Part shown: positions 2,987 through 9,378 of the stretch, one piece after another
Layout: the number at the start of each line of letters is the position of its first letter
Numbering within the stretch: position 1 is the stretch's first letter
Assembly: GCF_023078495.1 (NCBI RefSeq)
Contig: NZ_CP095742.1
Location: 3,162,001 to 3,226,000 of the forward strand
Direction: 5' to 3'
Source: Luteibacter aegosomatissinici
Lineage (GTDB): Bacteria > Pseudomonadota > Gammaproteobacteria > Xanthomonadales > Rhodanobacteraceae
Length of the DNA stretch: 64,000 nt
Notes under the pieces: model-generated
Database searches by the model: none
What the model was told of the DNA's origin: nothing
Seen by the model: the letters and a program-made list of their open reading frames with translations, nothing else
Program-made: the position numbers and the translations under genes

Positions 2987-5434
2987 ATGACGAGCGAGTC
3001 CGATTCAAAGGCAGGCAACGGCGAACGACAGGCCAACCGGATGGATCGGCGCCAGTTCCTGAAGGTGAGCGGCACCATGGCCACCCTGCTTCCCTGGCTT
3101 GCGTTGCCCCGCTTTACGGAAGGCAAGCCCGTGCAACGCCCCGCAGGCCCTCTCCCCGCGACCGCAGCGCGCCATGCCCTCTGGTACGACACGCCTGCGG
3201 CCGAAGCAAACCTGCTGCGCGAAGGCTTACCGGTTGGCAACGGCCGCATCGGCGCGCTTGTGGGTGGTGACCCGGCATCCACATGCCTGTACCTCACGGA
3301 CGCCTCCATGTGGCTGGGCAAGCGCGATGTGGCGCTGGGTCAGGATGGCCAGTTCGATTATTCGACCCAGTCTTTTGGCAGCCTGGTCATGCTTGCCAGG
3401 CTGTACCTGTCGATCGACGGGCACGATGCCGCGCACATCAGCCACTACCGGCGAGAGCTCGACCTGGACCAGGGCTACCTGCGGATTTCCTATCGAAAGG
3501 ACGGTATCGGTTACAACTGGAACATATTTGCCAGCCACCCCGATGATGTCATCGCCATCCAGGTCTCGCAGACCGCCGGGGGCACGTTCAGTGGCTCGCT
3601 GACGTGTCATGGCATGCACGGCGATGTAACTCGCGCTGTATCCGTGAACGGTGACGGGATGGCGGCTTGTCAGTTCGACGGCACGCTGGCCAACGGCCTG
3701 CGGTACGCCGCGCATGCCCTCGCGTCGGCATCGTCGGGACGTCTCGACACTAACGGCGAAGCCGTTCATTTTGCGAACTGCAGCACACTTTCCATCATCG
3801 TATGCGGCGGCACCAACTACACACCGGACGTAGCAGCGGAGTACATGGATGCCACGCTGAATCCACTGGTCCTTGCCACCCGCAAGGCCAGCACCGCTGC
3901 ACGGCAGGACCCTGTCACCCTGCTCCATACCCATGTCGCCGATTACCGCTCCCTGTTCGACGCCATGCATGTCGACCTGGGCGCATCGACCACGACGCAG
4001 CGCGCCATGGACACGTGGGCGCGCCTCAAGGCCCGCGCCGAGACCGGTTCGTCCGCCGATCCGGAATTCGAGGCGACGTACCTTCAGTACGGCCGGTACC
4101 TCACGATCGCTGGCTCAAGGGATAGCTTGCCGACCGGCCTGCAAGGCTTATGGCTCGACAGCAACGAATCACCGTGGATGGCCGATTATCACAACGACAT
4201 CAACATCCAGATGAACTACTGGCTGCCTGACCGGGCCGCCCTGCCATCCTGCTTCGATCCCTTCACCCGGTACTGCCTTAGCCAGGTGGGCGCGTGGACC
4301 GAAGCCACCCGCAAACACTTCAACGATCCGCGGAACAACTACCGGAACAGCTCGGGGAAGCTCGCCGGCTGGACCGTGGGCATCTCCACCAATATCTACG
4401 GTGGTGGTGGGTGGCGCTGGCACCCGGCCGGCAACGCCTGGCTGTGTAACAACCTGTGGCAGCACTACCAGTACCGCCCCGACCCCACCTACCTTGCGCA
4501 GATCTATCCGCTCTTGAAGGGCGCCTGTGAGTTTTGGGAGGCGCGACTGCTGACGGTAAGCGTGAAAGATCCCGCATCGGGCCATATGCGCGAGGTCCTT
4601 ATCGACGATGCCGACTGGTCGCCGGAACACGGCCCCACCGATGCGAAGGGCAACACGTATTCACAGGAATGGGTGTGGGATCTGTTTGAAAACTATCGTC
4701 AGGCCAGCGCGTTGCTGGGCAAGGATGCGGACTACGCCGCCACCGTAGCTCAACTACAGGCGCGGCTCTATCTTCCACAGGTAAGCCCCAGAACAGGCTG
4801 GCTCGAGGAATGGATGTCACCGGATGACCTGGGCGAACCCCAACACCGGCACCTCTCCCCGCTGGTCGGCTTTTTTCCCGGGGACAGGATCCGTACGGAC
4901 AACAGCCCGCCCGCATTGATCGAGGGCGTGACGAAGCTGCTTGAGGCGCGTGGCACCGGGGGCTACGGCTGGGCCAGTGCATGGCGCGCCATGTGCTGGG
5001 CGCGCCTAGGCCAAGCGGAAAAGGCCTACCAGCTCGTCCTCAACAACCTCAAGCCTTCCGTACAACGAAGCAACGGCACCGCGCTCAACCTGTTCGATAT
5101 GTACCAGTTGGACGCCGACCACGATGCCTTCCAGATCGATGCGAACTACGGCACGCCAACGGCCATGCTGGAGATGCTTGTCTCATCGCGGCCAGGGGTG
5201 ATCCGCCTCCTGCCTGCCTTGCCCACGGCGTGGGCTGCGTCGGGGAGCGTGACCGGCATCGGCGCACGCGGCGGCTTCCAGGTCGACCTGGCGTGGAAAC
5301 AGGGGAAGGTCACGTCAGTGACGGTGCGCAGCGTCGGTGGGAAGACGACCCGATTGATGCACGGATCGTGGGTAAAGGACATCACGCTGCCGCGCGGTGG
5401 GGCGGTGACGCTGTCCCCGAACGAATCTGCATAG
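2987..5434 (+). CDS. GH95 family glycoside hydrolase (alpha-L-fucosidase-like)
   Basis: Probable exo-acting alpha-L-fucosidase (GH95; some members act on alpha-L-galactosides) releasing terminal sugars from plant oligosaccharides in the periplasm. The N-terminus carries a Tat-type signal (RRQFLKVSG), and Met19 at 3041 may be the true start. Neither start has a strong ribosome site. Family landmarks are the N-terminal LPVGNGRIGALVGG stretch, the central HGPTDAKGNTYSQEWVWDLF region, GYGWASAWRAMCWARLG, and FQIDANYGTPTAMLEML followed by LLPALPTAW. The length of 815 residues fits the family. It diverges from a TonB receptor, and a GH35 galactosidase lies 8 kb downstream. Substrate is inferred. Confidence 0.9.
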   Translation: MTSESDSKAGNGERQANRMDRRQFLKVSGTMATLLPWLALPRFTEGKPVQRPAGPLPATAARHALWYDTPAAEANLLREGLPVGNGRIGALVGGDPASTCLYLTDASMWLGKRDVALGQDGQFDYSTQSFGSLVMLARLYLSIDGHDAAHISHYRRELDLDQGYLRISYRKDGIGYNWNIFASHPDDVIAIQVSQTAGGTFSGSLTCHGMHGDVTRAVSVNGDGMAACQFDGTLANGLRYAAHALASASSGRLDTNGEAVHFANCSTLSIIVCGGTNYTPDVAAEYMDATLNPLVLATRKASTAARQDPVTLLHTHVADYRSLFDAMHVDLGASTTTQRAMDTWARLKARAETGSSADPEFEATYLQYGRYLTIAGSRDSLPTGLQGLWLDSNESPWMADYHNDINIQMNYWLPDRAALPSCFDPFTRYCLSQVGAWTEATRKHFNDPRNNYRNSSGKLAGWTVGISTNIYGGGGWRWHPAGNAWLCNNLWQHYQYRPDPTYLAQIYPLLKGACEFWEARLLTVSVKDPASGHMREVLIDDADWSPEHGPTDAKGNTYSQEWVWDLFENYRQASALLGKDADYAATVAQLQARLYLPQVSPRTGWLEEWMSPDDLGEPQHRHLSPLVGFFPGDRIRTDNSPPALIEGVTKLLEARGTGGYGWASAWRAMCWARLGQAEKAYQLVLNNLKPSVQRSNGTALNLFDMYQLDADHDAFQIDANYGTPTAMLEMLVSSRPGVIRLLPALPTAWAASGSVTGIGARGGFQVDLAWKQGKVTSVTVRSVGGKTTRLMHGSWVKDITLPRGGAVTLSPNESA

Positions 5435-5488: not shown

Positions 5489-7066
5489 TCATGCACTGGC
5501 CTGCCTTGCAACACGCTCGAGCCAAAGAAACGAAGCAAACGCCGAGGCCGCGGGGTGCGAGTGCGTCTCCGCGATGGTCTGTAGCAACGCGAGCACGGCT
5601 TCCCGTTTCACCAATCCGAGATCAGCCAACGCGCATTCGCCCAGTTGCGCCGCGAGGCGGCCCGCGTGCCGCGCAAGGAGCGGCGGCAGCACGTTCGCAA
5701 AGGTTTCCTTGAGATAGCCCTTGGGGAACACATCGCCGCCCAGGTGGCTTTCAAGATACCTCCGCATCACCTCCCGCCCCTCACGGCTACTTCGGGGCAG
5801 CCGATGGCAGAAGTAGGCCAGCCGCGGATCACTCAGCGGGTGCACTGGCCACTGCCCATGCTTGAGTAAGTCCGGCGCCCGGCACGCGTTGGCGAGCAGC
5901 GAGGTGACTGGCACCGGGCTGAGCGGCGCATCGAACAGGGGCCGGCCGTGCGCAGCGGCAAGTGCCGTCGGGGTCAGCAAGGCTTCCGCATAGCTGCGTG
6001 CGTCACGGCCCCACAACGGCCCCCTGGCGGTCTCTTCGGAAACTTCATTGAGGTACGCAGGGAAGAGCTCATCACCGCCCACGCCAGTGAACAGCGTGTG
6101 GCGCCCGTTATCGCGCGCGGAAGCCCACAAGGCCGAGCAGGCTTCCAGATAGAACTCGCGGCAAAAGCCGTAGGGCTCGGCGGGCAGCGCCAGATCCAAC
6201 CCCGGCGGAAACGCGGTGATGTCCACCGTATGGTCGGCAAGGCCGAGGCGTTCGGCGATACGTTGGCGGCGGTGCGCCTGCGGCGCACGCACCTCGCCAT
6301 CAAGCAGGATGCCTTTGCTATCGATGTCGCGATGGCGCTGGGCGAGCGCCACCGCGACGGTCGCCGAATCCATGCCGCCACTGAGTTCCAGCGACGCCGC
6401 ACCGTCGGGCCATGGCCGCAGTGACACCGCGCGCTGCAGTGCTTCCGAAAACCCGGGCAACCGGTCCTCGCCATCCTCTGCGGGTGGACCGCCCTCCTCC
6501 ATCGCTTCGGGGTAGCGGTAGCGTGCCCGCCCCGGCTCGACGTGCAGCGATGCTCGCTCGGTGAGCAGCACCACACCGGCGTACAGCTGCCGCGCCGCGT
6601 ACGTGGTGCGCAACGCCAGCTGATGGCTCGCCACTTCCGTATCAAGCAGCGCGGGGTAGCGAGCAAAGTCAGCCGAATCCCACGAGAGGGTGACCCGGTC
6701 ATCCCCGACCGCACAATAGACCGGCGCGGTGCCGAGCATGCCGGCACGAACGCGCACGCGCCGTCCGGCTTGCGCCACTTCGACCATCACATAATCGAGC
6801 GGCCACAGCAGGCACGCCTGGTGAATGGCGTGATACGTCGCTTCATCACGTGCATCGACGATGGGACCGTGGACGTTCGCATGCCCGCCTGAATCGGCCT
6901 GACGCTCCCTGACCACCATGAACCATCGACCTGGCGCACGCACCAACACAGTCTCGAGCATGGGATGCGCGTACGGCGTCATACGGCTAGTCCCTAACCA
7001 CAACGAACCTTCGCGCCACACCGGCTCAAATGACAGGTCGGCTAACGCCACTTCGGCCTTGATCAC
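5489..7066 (-). CDS. asparagine-synthetase-like ATP-dependent enzyme, lasso-cyclase-like
   Basis: A 525-residue protein of the AsnB/beta-lactam synthetase/lasso cyclase superfamily. The start is GTG with a GAGGGAG ribosome site. The N-terminus (MIKAEV) lacks the Cys2 nucleophile of true glutamine-dependent AsnB, so ammonia cannot be made from glutamine in the usual way. The C-terminal synthetase domain is intact: pyrophosphate loop SGGMDS at 229-234, GVGGDELFP at 328-336, and a late lysine in FPKGYLKE near 449-453. Such proteins adenylate a carboxylate and form an amide, as lasso cyclases do. A 54-residue peptide gene lies immediately upstream behind a terminator. No lasso B protease gene is adjacent. 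Function as a peptide-modifying cyclase is inference; a free-standing amidotransferase remains possible. Confidence 0.8.
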   Translation of the reverse strand: MIKAEVALADLSFEPVWREGSLWLGTSRMTPYAHPMLETVLVRAPGRWFMVVRERQADSGGHANVHGPIVDARDEATYHAIHQACLLWPLDYVMVEVAQAGRRVRVRAGMLGTAPVYCAVGDDRVTLSWDSADFARYPALLDTEVASHQLALRTTYAARQLYAGVVLLTERASLHVEPGRARYRYPEAMEEGGPPAEDGEDRLPGFSEALQRAVSLRPWPDGAASLELSGGMDSATVAVALAQRHRDIDSKGILLDGEVRAPQAHRRQRIAERLGLADHTVDITAFPPGLDLALPAEPYGFCREFYLEACSALWASARDNGRHTLFTGVGGDELFPAYLNEVSEETARGPLWGRDARSYAEALLTPTALAAAHGRPLFDAPLSPVPVTSLLANACRAPDLLKHGQWPVHPLSDPRLAYFCHRLPRSSREGREVMRRYLESHLGGDVFPKGYLKETFANVLPPLLARHAGRLAAQLGECALADLGLVKREAVLALLQTIAETHSHPAASAFASFLWLERVARQASA

Positions 7067-7084
7067 CCACGGACTCCCTCGACG

Positions 7085-7113
7085 AAAAAGCCGCCCCTGT
7101 AATGAGGCGGCTT
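7085..7113 (-). terminator. intrinsic terminator between peptide gene and cyclase-like gene
   Basis: Read on the minus strand, AAGCCGCC (7113-7106) and GGCGGCTT (7095-7088) form a perfect 8 bp stem with a 10-base loop, followed by a T run. It lies after the peptide stop and just before the ribosome site of the cyclase-like gene, so it probably makes the peptide transcript far more abundant than the enzyme transcript by partial termination. Confidence 0.85.
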
Positions 7114-7149
7114 CGCTTTCGTACAGCGGCTAGGAACGATGCCCGGGAC

Positions 7150-7314
7150 TCAGCCCCAGTCGCCGCCACTGTGCGTGGAGCCGATGCGGCCAATATCGCC
7201 GACATCATCGATCTTCGGTGCCCACTTCATTGACGTGGCTGCAGGCTGCATCGGGCCATCCATCTGGATTCCGAAGAGGTTGACGTCGTGCATCGGCTGG
7301 TCGCGCTTTTCCAT
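7150..7314 (-). CDS. 54-residue putative RiPP precursor peptide
   Basis: A small gene starting at ATG 7314 with a well-placed GGAG ribosome site (GGAGCGTTAAC before the ATG) and ending with TGA at 7150. The peptide begins MEKRDQPMHDVNLFG, has a middle MKWAPKIDDVGD (residues 29-40), and ends GSTHSGGDWG. The PKIDDVG part resembles the P-x-L/I-x3-G element of lasso leader peptides, which binds the RRE. The C-terminus is Gly/Ser/Asp-rich with an Asp three residues from the end. It has no signal peptide and no cysteine. It sits directly upstream of an asparagine-synthetase-like gene. The canonical lasso arrangement (Thr at -2, Gly or similar at +1, ring acid at 7-9, long tail) is not clearly met, so the product class is unknown. 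Confidence 0.65.
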   Translation of the reverse strand: MEKRDQPMHDVNLFGIQMDGPMQPAATSMKWAPKIDDVGDIGRIGSTHSGGDWG

Positions 7315-7422
7315 GTTAACGCTCCGAAGGTTGTTGGCCGCCCTACGCGGCTCATCGACCGTAGCATAGGGGTGGCAACGCGAGAGCGCCGAGGACTATG
7401 CATTATCGGAACGTCGGTCCCG

Positions 7423-8871: not shown

Positions 8872-9378
8872 CTAGCCGACCCAGTGAATATGGTTACCGA
8901 GCGCCGCCCAAAGCGCTCCCGCGCCCACGGCGCCCCAACTCCCGAGTTTCACCATTCCCCAGATCCGGTGTTCCCACGTCGCAAGCCTTCTGACCTCCAA
9001 GGCAAGGTCATTGACGGTAGAAGCGAGGGCCTTGATCGCCGATTCCACCGCATCGAAGCGCTTATCGACAGCATCAAATCGCCTGTCGACTGCTTCGAAT
9101 CGCCGATCAACCGCTTCGAACCGTTTATCGACGTCATCGAAACGCTTGTCGATGGCTTCGAAACGCTTGTCGATAGCTTCGAAGCGCTTGTCGATAGCTT
9201 CGAAACGCTTGTCGACGGCCTCGAATTGCTTGTCGTGGGAATCGAAACGCTGATCATGGCGCGCAAGGATGCTCATGATCTCGACGTGCACTTCGTGATA
9301 CGCGAGGCTACCTGCATATGACCTTGGCTTATTGACCTGAGCCCGCCCACAACCCCGTTTTGTTGCGCGAACGCTCAT
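8872..9378 (-). CDS. heptad-repeat coiled-coil protein with C-terminal membrane helix
   Basis: 168 residues starting at 9378 behind an almost perfect Shine-Dalgarno sequence (AAAGGAGGTGA), so it should be translated efficiently. Residues 41-112 are about ten consecutive seven-residue repeats of the type KRFEAID/RRFEAVD, giving an uninterrupted parallel coiled coil. A predicted single transmembrane helix follows near 143-162 (LGSWGAVGAGALWAAL). No signal peptide is evident, so the coiled coil is probably cytoplasmic and tail-anchored. The repeats resemble those in DUF1640-type or phage-associated hypothetical proteins, but no function can be given. It converges with kdsA. Confidence 0.8.
   Translation of the reverse strand: MSVRATKRGCGRAQVNKPRSYAGSLAYHEVHVEIMSILARHDQRFDSHDKQFEAVDKRFEAIDKRFEAIDKRFEAIDKRFDDVDKRFEAVDRRFEAVDRRFDAVDKRFDAVESAIKALASTVNDLALEVRRLATWEHRIWGMVKLGSWGAVGAGALWAALGNHIHWVG
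9043..9258 (-). repeat. 21-bp tandem repeats encoding heptads
   Basis: The heptad region is built from 21 bp tandem units such as GTCGATAGCTTCGAAACGCT on the plus strand. Neighbouring units are nearly identical at the DNA level, so copy number can probably vary by slippage without breaking the frame. Confidence 0.8.

Follow-up and report, generated by a model that had tools for sequence, protein, structure and literature searches.

Beta-lactam and carbapenam synthetases activate a carboxylate by adenylation and then form an amide within the same molecule, and in graspetides of the microviridin type ATP-grasp ligases join a Lys to an Asp or Glu side chain, forming a macrolactam on a ribosomal peptide. 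Here we analyze a two-gene locus of Luteibacter aegosomatissinici in which a 54-codon precursor peptide gene precedes the gene for a 525-residue enzyme resembling asparagine synthetase (AS). The locus lies within a stretch of 64,000 nucleotides (assembly GCF_023078495.1, contig NZ_CP095742.1, positions 3,162,001 to 3,226,000), referred to below as the window. The AS-like enzymes acting on ribosomally synthesized and post-translationally modified peptides (RiPPs) that are named in the available portion of a 2026 preprint are the lasso cyclases, the C-terminal amidases TsrC and ScdTA, and that study's own nitrile synthetase (PMC13060819). The same portion mentions about 300 uncharacterised AS-like RiPP enzyme candidates beyond the lasso cyclases, and the pair described here may be among them (PMC13060819). 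No report of the pair was among the papers listed for the terms searched in the open PMC literature.

The pair resembles lasso systems of the benenodin and xanthomonin kind in its AS-fold cyclase, small adjoining precursor gene, short tail, and a ring that is predicted to have 7-8 residues and to close on an Asp. It differs from them in having an invariant Lys, in lacking an adjacent B1/B2 leader protease as well as the Thr at position -2 or the Gly, Ala or Ser start, and in that a pairwise comparison of its enzyme with a true lasso cyclase from the related genus Dyella gave no significant match. Beta-lactam and carbapenam synthetases share the predicted fold over most of its length and the missing nucleophile, but they act on small molecules, and their structures matched the enzyme at 13-18% identity. 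A Lys-Asp side-chain macrolactam, as predicted here, would be graspetide-like, whereas the enzyme has an AS rather than an ATP-grasp fold. TsrC, ScdTA and PesC are also AS-like enzymes working on ribosomal peptides; in the text available they amidate or nitrilate C-termini, while the C-terminus is not conserved in the present precursors (PMC13060819). We consider it rather probable, from sequence comparisons, that the pair represents a RiPP family not recognised so far, whose stand-alone synthetase joins a Lys to an Asp (Lys34 and Asp40 here) in a macrolactam of 7-8 residues. The features of the locus are as follows (window coordinates, basis in parentheses).

7322-7325, minus strand: GGAG ribosome-binding site of the precursor gene (sequence)
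7150-7314, minus strand: precursor peptide gene, 54 codons, conserved leader followed by a core with Lys34 and Asp40 (open reading frame call)
7228-7314, minus strand: precursor leader, residues 1-29, with NLFGIQMDGPM and the invariant Pro21 (alignment of 21 precursors)
7195-7215, minus strand: predicted ring segment Lys34-Ile-Asp-Asp-Val-Gly-Asp40, K-x5-D (motif counts and the 21-row alignment)
7087-7114, minus strand: intergenic hairpin with T's after it, likely attenuator or terminator (folding, pattern search)
5489-7066, minus strand: AS-fold enzyme, 525 amino acids, GTG start, predicted peptide macrolactam synthetase (PF00733, AlphaFold2, Foldseek)
6365-6382, minus strand: SGGMDS ATP-pyrophosphatase loop, residues 229-234 (alignment of 49 relatives)
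6059-6085, minus strand: GVGGDELFP motif, residues 328-336 (alignment of 49 relatives)

The precursor and its Lys-Asp pair

A model of the leader was built from seven N-terminal halves, excluding the core, and was used to select Xanthomonadales precursors. The leaders of the selected peptides have in common N-x-F and a later P-[MLI], and their C-terminal parts vary (IGRIGSTHSGGDWG, SRWYSTQPGG, LAHASRGFGCDQD, NGGYGIPTIP). Met1, Pro21, Lys34 and Asp40 are invariant in an alignment of 21 precursors, with N12 and F14 conserved in at least 90%; in the core nothing is invariant except a Lys and, six or seven positions further on, an Asp (Lys34 and Asp40 in the window). K-x5-D or K-x6-D was present past the leader in 42/42 leader-selected precursors, a count in which the window row kept 14 extra residues ahead of the core. 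Among distinct cores the motif occurred in 19/19, whereas over 5,000 shuffles the count averaged 5.18 and never exceeded 12, and K..D ranked first among all residue pairs and spacings (26/26; runner-up, 21). Four further precursors, recovered with a whole-precursor profile that included the core and matched by the leader-only model too, all had the motif (4/4). With them the counts became 46/46 precursors and 18/18 distinct cores, against a shuffle mean of 4.29 and a maximum of 12 (20,000 shuffles); the window row was entered there with Lys30-Asp36, the first of its several pairs. Excluded from the motif counts were L005 and L006 (which duplicate L004 and L003), L072, L073, L074 and L076 (precursors identical to those of L040 or L053), and L075, whose frame is broken. 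The motif hypothesis was fixed before the leader-only model searches, which returned KFNQPGD, KPFRPGD, KLPIPGD, KLIDGVTD, KPFGMIID and KPYGMVID.

The motif was found in the last two thirds of the precursor in 12/12 sequences from other lineages, a viral contig and four near-identical Rhizobium sequences included; a version of the test limited to the last 25 residues gave 9/10. Bradyrhizobium has KGPFPSD and KAPFPND, Mesorhizobium KRRLPGD, Rhizobium KGGKPGD, and Streptomyces KPAGTED, KAAETSD and KMPGGGD. The leaders in these four genera are unlike that of Luteibacter, except that one Mesorhizobium leader matched weakly (E 0.0024), and the Lys-Asp spacing is kept despite this dissimilarity.

Outside the motif there is little constancy. 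The residues ahead of the Lys vary freely (12 residue types at position -2 in 30 rows; Pro is the commonest at -1), so no conserved cleavage site was seen. With one exception, the members listed have a tail of 6-14 residues after the predicted ring, and the C-terminal residue is most commonly G but can also be D, T, P, S, L, V, N, K or C. A first-pass annotation of the locus, made from the letters and open reading frames (ORFs) of the window, had likened PKIDDVG to the lasso leader element P-x-L-x3-G and named Gly45 to Asp52 as the closest ring option. On the precursor alignment both were rejected: PKIDDVG includes Lys34 and runs up to Asp40, both of them invariant, and the Gly45-Asp52 ring lacks conservation, with relatives ending in GGGG, SRGGIG, GIPTIP, GCDQD or YYSGG. 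That annotation had also named conservation of GGDWG and PKIDDVG as support for its reading. GGDWG is kept among close relatives only, and in PKIDDVGD the Lys and the last Asp are invariant while the remaining residues are not.

The 54-codon ORF, with the GGAG at 7325-7322 confirming the ribosome site proposed at first, is coding by sequence criteria, because the ratio of non-synonymous to synonymous differences (pN/pS) was 0.04 in codons 30-54 and 0.46 in the leader (eight relatives against the window, Luteibacter group); nearly all changes in the core are synonymous, a sign of strong purifying selection. The two observations that had been named in advance as grounds for rejecting the peptide, namely the lack of a conserved small ORF upstream of the enzyme in relatives and many frame breaks in the 54-codon ORF, were not borne out: a small ORF beside the enzyme is conserved, and the pN/pS values are those of a protein. 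The peptide had no match in Pfam, NCBIfam or PHROGs. A conserved leader, a variable core and a linked modifying enzyme, the general marks of a RiPP, are all present, and on these comparisons the pair is real and conserved and is a putative minimal RiPP biosynthetic unit. The initial view of a RiPP-like precursor with an ATP-dependent modifier and no B protein is supported.

In the region between the genes, an 86-nucleotide strand has a folding energy of -35.8 kcal/mol (z -2.1). What had been called a perfect terminator hairpin (7114-7087, minus strand) is indeed a hairpin followed by T's, but its 11-pair stem includes G-U pairs and is not quite perfect, and it was absent from the output of a consensus terminator scan. 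A hairpin of this kind was found 3' of the precursor in 33/42 Xanthomonadales genes and in 0/10 from other lineages. It probably sets an excess of precursor over enzyme by lowering the expression of the enzyme relative to that of the precursor.

The synthetase-like enzyme

The enzyme matched PF00733 at 1e-11, and no NCBIfam model reached its cut-off; NF033561 scored 38.6 bits (cut-off 300), and a true Dyella lasso cyclase, at 118 bits, likewise stayed below. As anticipated, SGGMDS and GVGGDELFP are present and the glutaminase Cys is missing. Residue 2 is Ile, and among 49 aligned relatives it is L, I or F in 49/49 and Cys in 0/49; the family therefore lacks the Cys2 nucleophile that defines the glutamine-dependent asparagine synthetases. 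S229, G230, G231, D233 and S234, as well as G328, G330, G331 and D332, are kept in 49/49. The SGGxDS pyrophosphatase loop and the AS-B fold place the enzyme in the asparagine synthetase superfamily.

An AlphaFold2 model had a mean predicted local distance difference test (pLDDT) score of 73 and a predicted template modelling score of 0.79. When it was compared with known structures by Foldseek, TsnB9 was the best match, and beta-lactam synthetase, carbapenam synthetase and AsnB also matched, over most of the length. Searched as sequence, the enzyme had a single weak match among solved structures, NAD synthetase, and PADLOC returned a weak SspD match alone (E 0.068). The motifs and the predicted fold indicate an adenylating ligase of the asparagine synthetase type, whose glutaminase-like N-terminal domain is devoid of its nucleophile, as in beta-lactam synthetase. 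In a tree the branches to the lasso and asparagine synthetase rows are very long and may join falsely, and for that reason no rooting or monophyly is claimed.

Predicted chemistry and alternative readings

Macrolactam formation is the likeliest chemistry predicted for the pair. The enzyme would bind the leader (N-x-F..P-[MLI]) without a separate RiPP recognition element (RRE) protein and, with ATP, adenylate the side-chain carboxylate of Asp40, which would then be attacked intramolecularly by the epsilon-amine of Lys34. The product would be a macrolactam ring of 7 (or 8) residues closed by a Lys-Asp isopeptide bond, formed with a loss of 18.01 Da, and leader removal, if any, would be left to housekeeping proteases. 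Adenylation of Asp40 and attack by Lys34 are proposed by analogy to the beta-lactam and carbapenam synthetases and because Lys34 is the only invariant amine; attack by the side chain would also fit the invariance of the Lys, the lack of any conserved cleavage site and the missing protease gene. The tryptic fragment computed for the cross-linked peptide is WAPKIDDVGDIGR, 1423.73, with Lys34 blocked.

Whether the pair also defines a new RiPP class in gamma- and alphaproteobacteria and Streptomyces, with a Lys-Asp side-chain macrolactam, a leader that stays on, no protease or RRE, and an enzyme that may serve remote precursors, we put at an even chance. If so, lasso-type adenylation chemistry would meet a graspetide-type cross-link in a two-gene system, and AS-fold cyclases would have evolved peptide cyclisation outside lasso biosynthesis. 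A protease-free peptide macrolactam synthetase would then be useful for libraries of side-chain-stapled peptides. The family yields a residue-level prediction (which Lys, which Asp and what mass loss) and a two-gene construct, so the proposal is directly testable.

Several observations weigh against the macrolactam proposal. The chemistry is a prediction from sequence and a modelled fold; the AlphaFold2 alignment had 6 rows, the other four models had pLDDT values of 44-53, and the template modelling scores of the enzyme model to its best PDB matches were about 0.5-0.6. Position 453, which we take to be the catalytic Lys, is Arg in 5/49 relatives and Pro in 1/49. The shuffle statistics ignore relatedness, and hence the separate lineages weigh more; furthermore, the 42 precursors include those that prompted the motif idea, from which the seven seeds of the leader model were also drawn. 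For L040 and L054 (Bradyrhizobium), L051 and L091 the ORF was picked by position and motif, a weaker basis. Since Lys30-Asp36 and Lys30-Asp37 of the window peptide share the spacings, the position of Lys34-Asp40 rests on the family alignment. The tail in Mesorhizobium L039 has 26 residues, and in the Bradyrhizobium sp. 41S5 plasmid (L075) the precursor frame is broken, diverging from its relatives right after the conserved Pro-Lys, with the enzyme frame open. Finally, the invariance of the Lys and the Asp could serve recognition rather than bonding.

The window had no match to the lasso B2 family PF13471 at E<=1 and none to the S9 peptidases (PF00326, E<=1e-5; 12 matches elsewhere in the genome), in agreement with the early observation that no B protease or isopeptidase gene is adjacent. 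At E<=1e-8, B2 was absent from the window genome and was matched in 3/28 pair-bearing genomes, the search covering 28 of the 35 then known. The window genome has ten PF13471 matches at E<=1, three of them at or above the Pfam cut-off. These three (3/10 examined) are general PF01841 transglutaminase proteins that scored at most 19 bits with NF033537 (cut-off 33), and as candidates for a trans-acting lasso B protease they were rejected. An S9 peptidase beside the Xanthomonas sacchari pair was discarded as a neighbouring isopeptidase, since it recurs only in a syntenic Xanthomonas relative.

A genuine benenodin-type lasso cluster (L081:957-5779) occurs in a Dyella genome that also bears the stand-alone pair. 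It comprises B2 (NF033537, 81 bits, used as a positive control), a precursor at 5642-5779 (NF033522), a cyclase and an S9 peptidase ORF. At L083, from a second genome with a strong B2 match, there are a B-like gene and a frame resembling a cyclase.

The main rival, a true lasso product, supposes that an unlinked protease cuts before the Lys, that the alpha-amine attacks Asp7 or Asp8 and that the tail is threaded. Such an origin is compatible with the predicted ring sizes of 7-8 and the tails of mostly 6-14 residues, both within the lasso range in the text available, where fusilassin enzymes are described as tolerating rings of 7-10 (PMC13352647), and some pair-bearing genomes do have a true lasso cluster. 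Strong B2 matches were nevertheless confined to the 3/28 genomes mentioned above, the window genome not among them, and its weak matches that were examined belong to transglutaminase proteins. The accessible part of another study gives Thr, more rarely Ile or Val, at -2 of lasso leaders (PMC10368454), while here -1 and -2 are unconserved. The true precursor in L081 reads ..ETQ-GGPL, with Thr at -2 and Gly at 1; if Lys were residue 1 of our peptides, position -2 would be scattered over many residue types instead of being Thr (or the rarer Ile or Val), and the first core residue would not be small. In addition, BLASTP found no significant match between the Dyella lasso cyclase and the window enzyme (E 0.54), and hhalign aligned the enzyme family to it over the synthetase core only (probability 94%). 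By these sequence comparisons the pair is outside the lasso family as defined and has no dedicated B protease, and we regard a lasso product as unlikely.

An Asp- or C-terminus-directed product of another kind, such as an amide, nitrile, aspartimide or ester, appears quite unlikely as well. In the portion available, TsrC and ScdTA amidate C-termini and PesC forms a C-terminal nitrile, also with ammonia (PMC13060819), and the top Foldseek match, TsnB9, is a hydroxyamidotransferase; however, the variable C-terminus, the lack of the glutaminase Cys in every aligned relative and the Lys at fixed spacing, which it leaves unexplained, speak against such a product. That the Lys-Asp pair serves for recognition, with the enzyme joining the Asp to an external amine, as AS-fold ligases can do with external nucleophiles, we hold improbable, the simplest nucleophile being the invariant amine 6-7 residues away. 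Least credible, and very improbable in our estimation, is a small ORF that arose by chance or is a regulatory leader (e.g., an attenuator peptide) upstream of a small-molecule ligase. The hairpin 3' of the ORF would suit this role, but the core evolves under the constraint described above, tandem, remote and enzyme-downstream copies are unexpected for an attenuator, and the invariant pair persists where no hairpin was found.

Distribution and neighborhood of the pair

The enzyme (E<=1e-30) was present in 31/233 genomes of the family, and the precursor (21-precursor profile, E<=1e-3) in exactly the same 31. In a sample of the order, 29/398 genomes had the enzyme, four of them from a second family; the class (1/369) and phylum (1/398) samples had it in the window genome only (E<=1e-40). 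Relatives of the enzyme are found on plasmid records of Xanthomonas sacchari, Mesorhizobium, Aminobacter, Bradyrhizobium, Rhizobium and Streptomyces, with about 28-50% identity among the matches listed (40 of 53). In the plasmid records inspected a small ORF was annotated or readable directly upstream of the enzyme, except in L075. The hosts are soil, plant-associated and antibiotic-producing bacteria. The peptide-then-enzyme order, equated at first with the A-C order of proteobacterial lasso clusters, is not general: in Dyella and at one locus of another member of the Rhodanobacteraceae (G232) the precursor gene is downstream of the enzyme.

Some genomes have tandem precursors, and in some there are extra ones at distances of 1.6 to 22 kb or on another contig. 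Four further precursor genes (L118, L119, L120 and L121, in genomes G112, G104, G116 and G232) lie either on a contig other than that of the pair, at about 15 and 22 kb from it, or 1.6 kb away from the nearest other precursor; among the stretches covered, the one around L121 alone contains an enzyme sequence. All four encode K-x5/6-D, and it is possible that they are trans substrates.

In Streptomyces NBC_00334 (L051) the record annotates another upstream ORF, and the likely precursor, at 4808-4927, is outside the listed annotation; it has 39 codons, a ribosome site and KMPGGGD, its end is DKMPGGGDNNGDHCSK, and about 74 bases separate it from the start of the enzyme gene, which is itself followed by a methyltransferase gene. 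An IMG/VR viral contig of 110 kb (L091) has an enzyme relative (30% identity) and an upstream ORF ending in KKIAGSSDSVQTYDTTAV, and eleven IMG/VR contigs (L092-L102) have a more distant synthetase-domain match, 25-26% identical over about 230 residues.

All-against-all BLASTP of 22 neighborhoods identified the enzyme as the sole broadly common gene. The next cluster came from 7 loci and was made up of ORFs that overlap the enzyme region; an ABC protein recurred in 3. Two Streptomyces pairs have ABC-type ATPases in their vicinity, and one Bradyrhizobium and one Mesorhizobium pair have ABC proteins that include a membrane domain. In four Rhizobium loci (L041, L053, L076 and L077) the pair is directly downstream of an acyl-homoserine-lactone synthase gene, with rhiA visible in 3/4; quorum control of the Rhizobium pair is possible. 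The pair is followed by nifHDK in R. johnstonii 3841 and by nifH and nifD, before the stretch ends, in strain 248. In the window itself, a 168-amino-acid ORF at 8872-9378 (minus strand) has repeated KRFEAIDKRFEAID-like units and, by eye, is likely a coiled coil.

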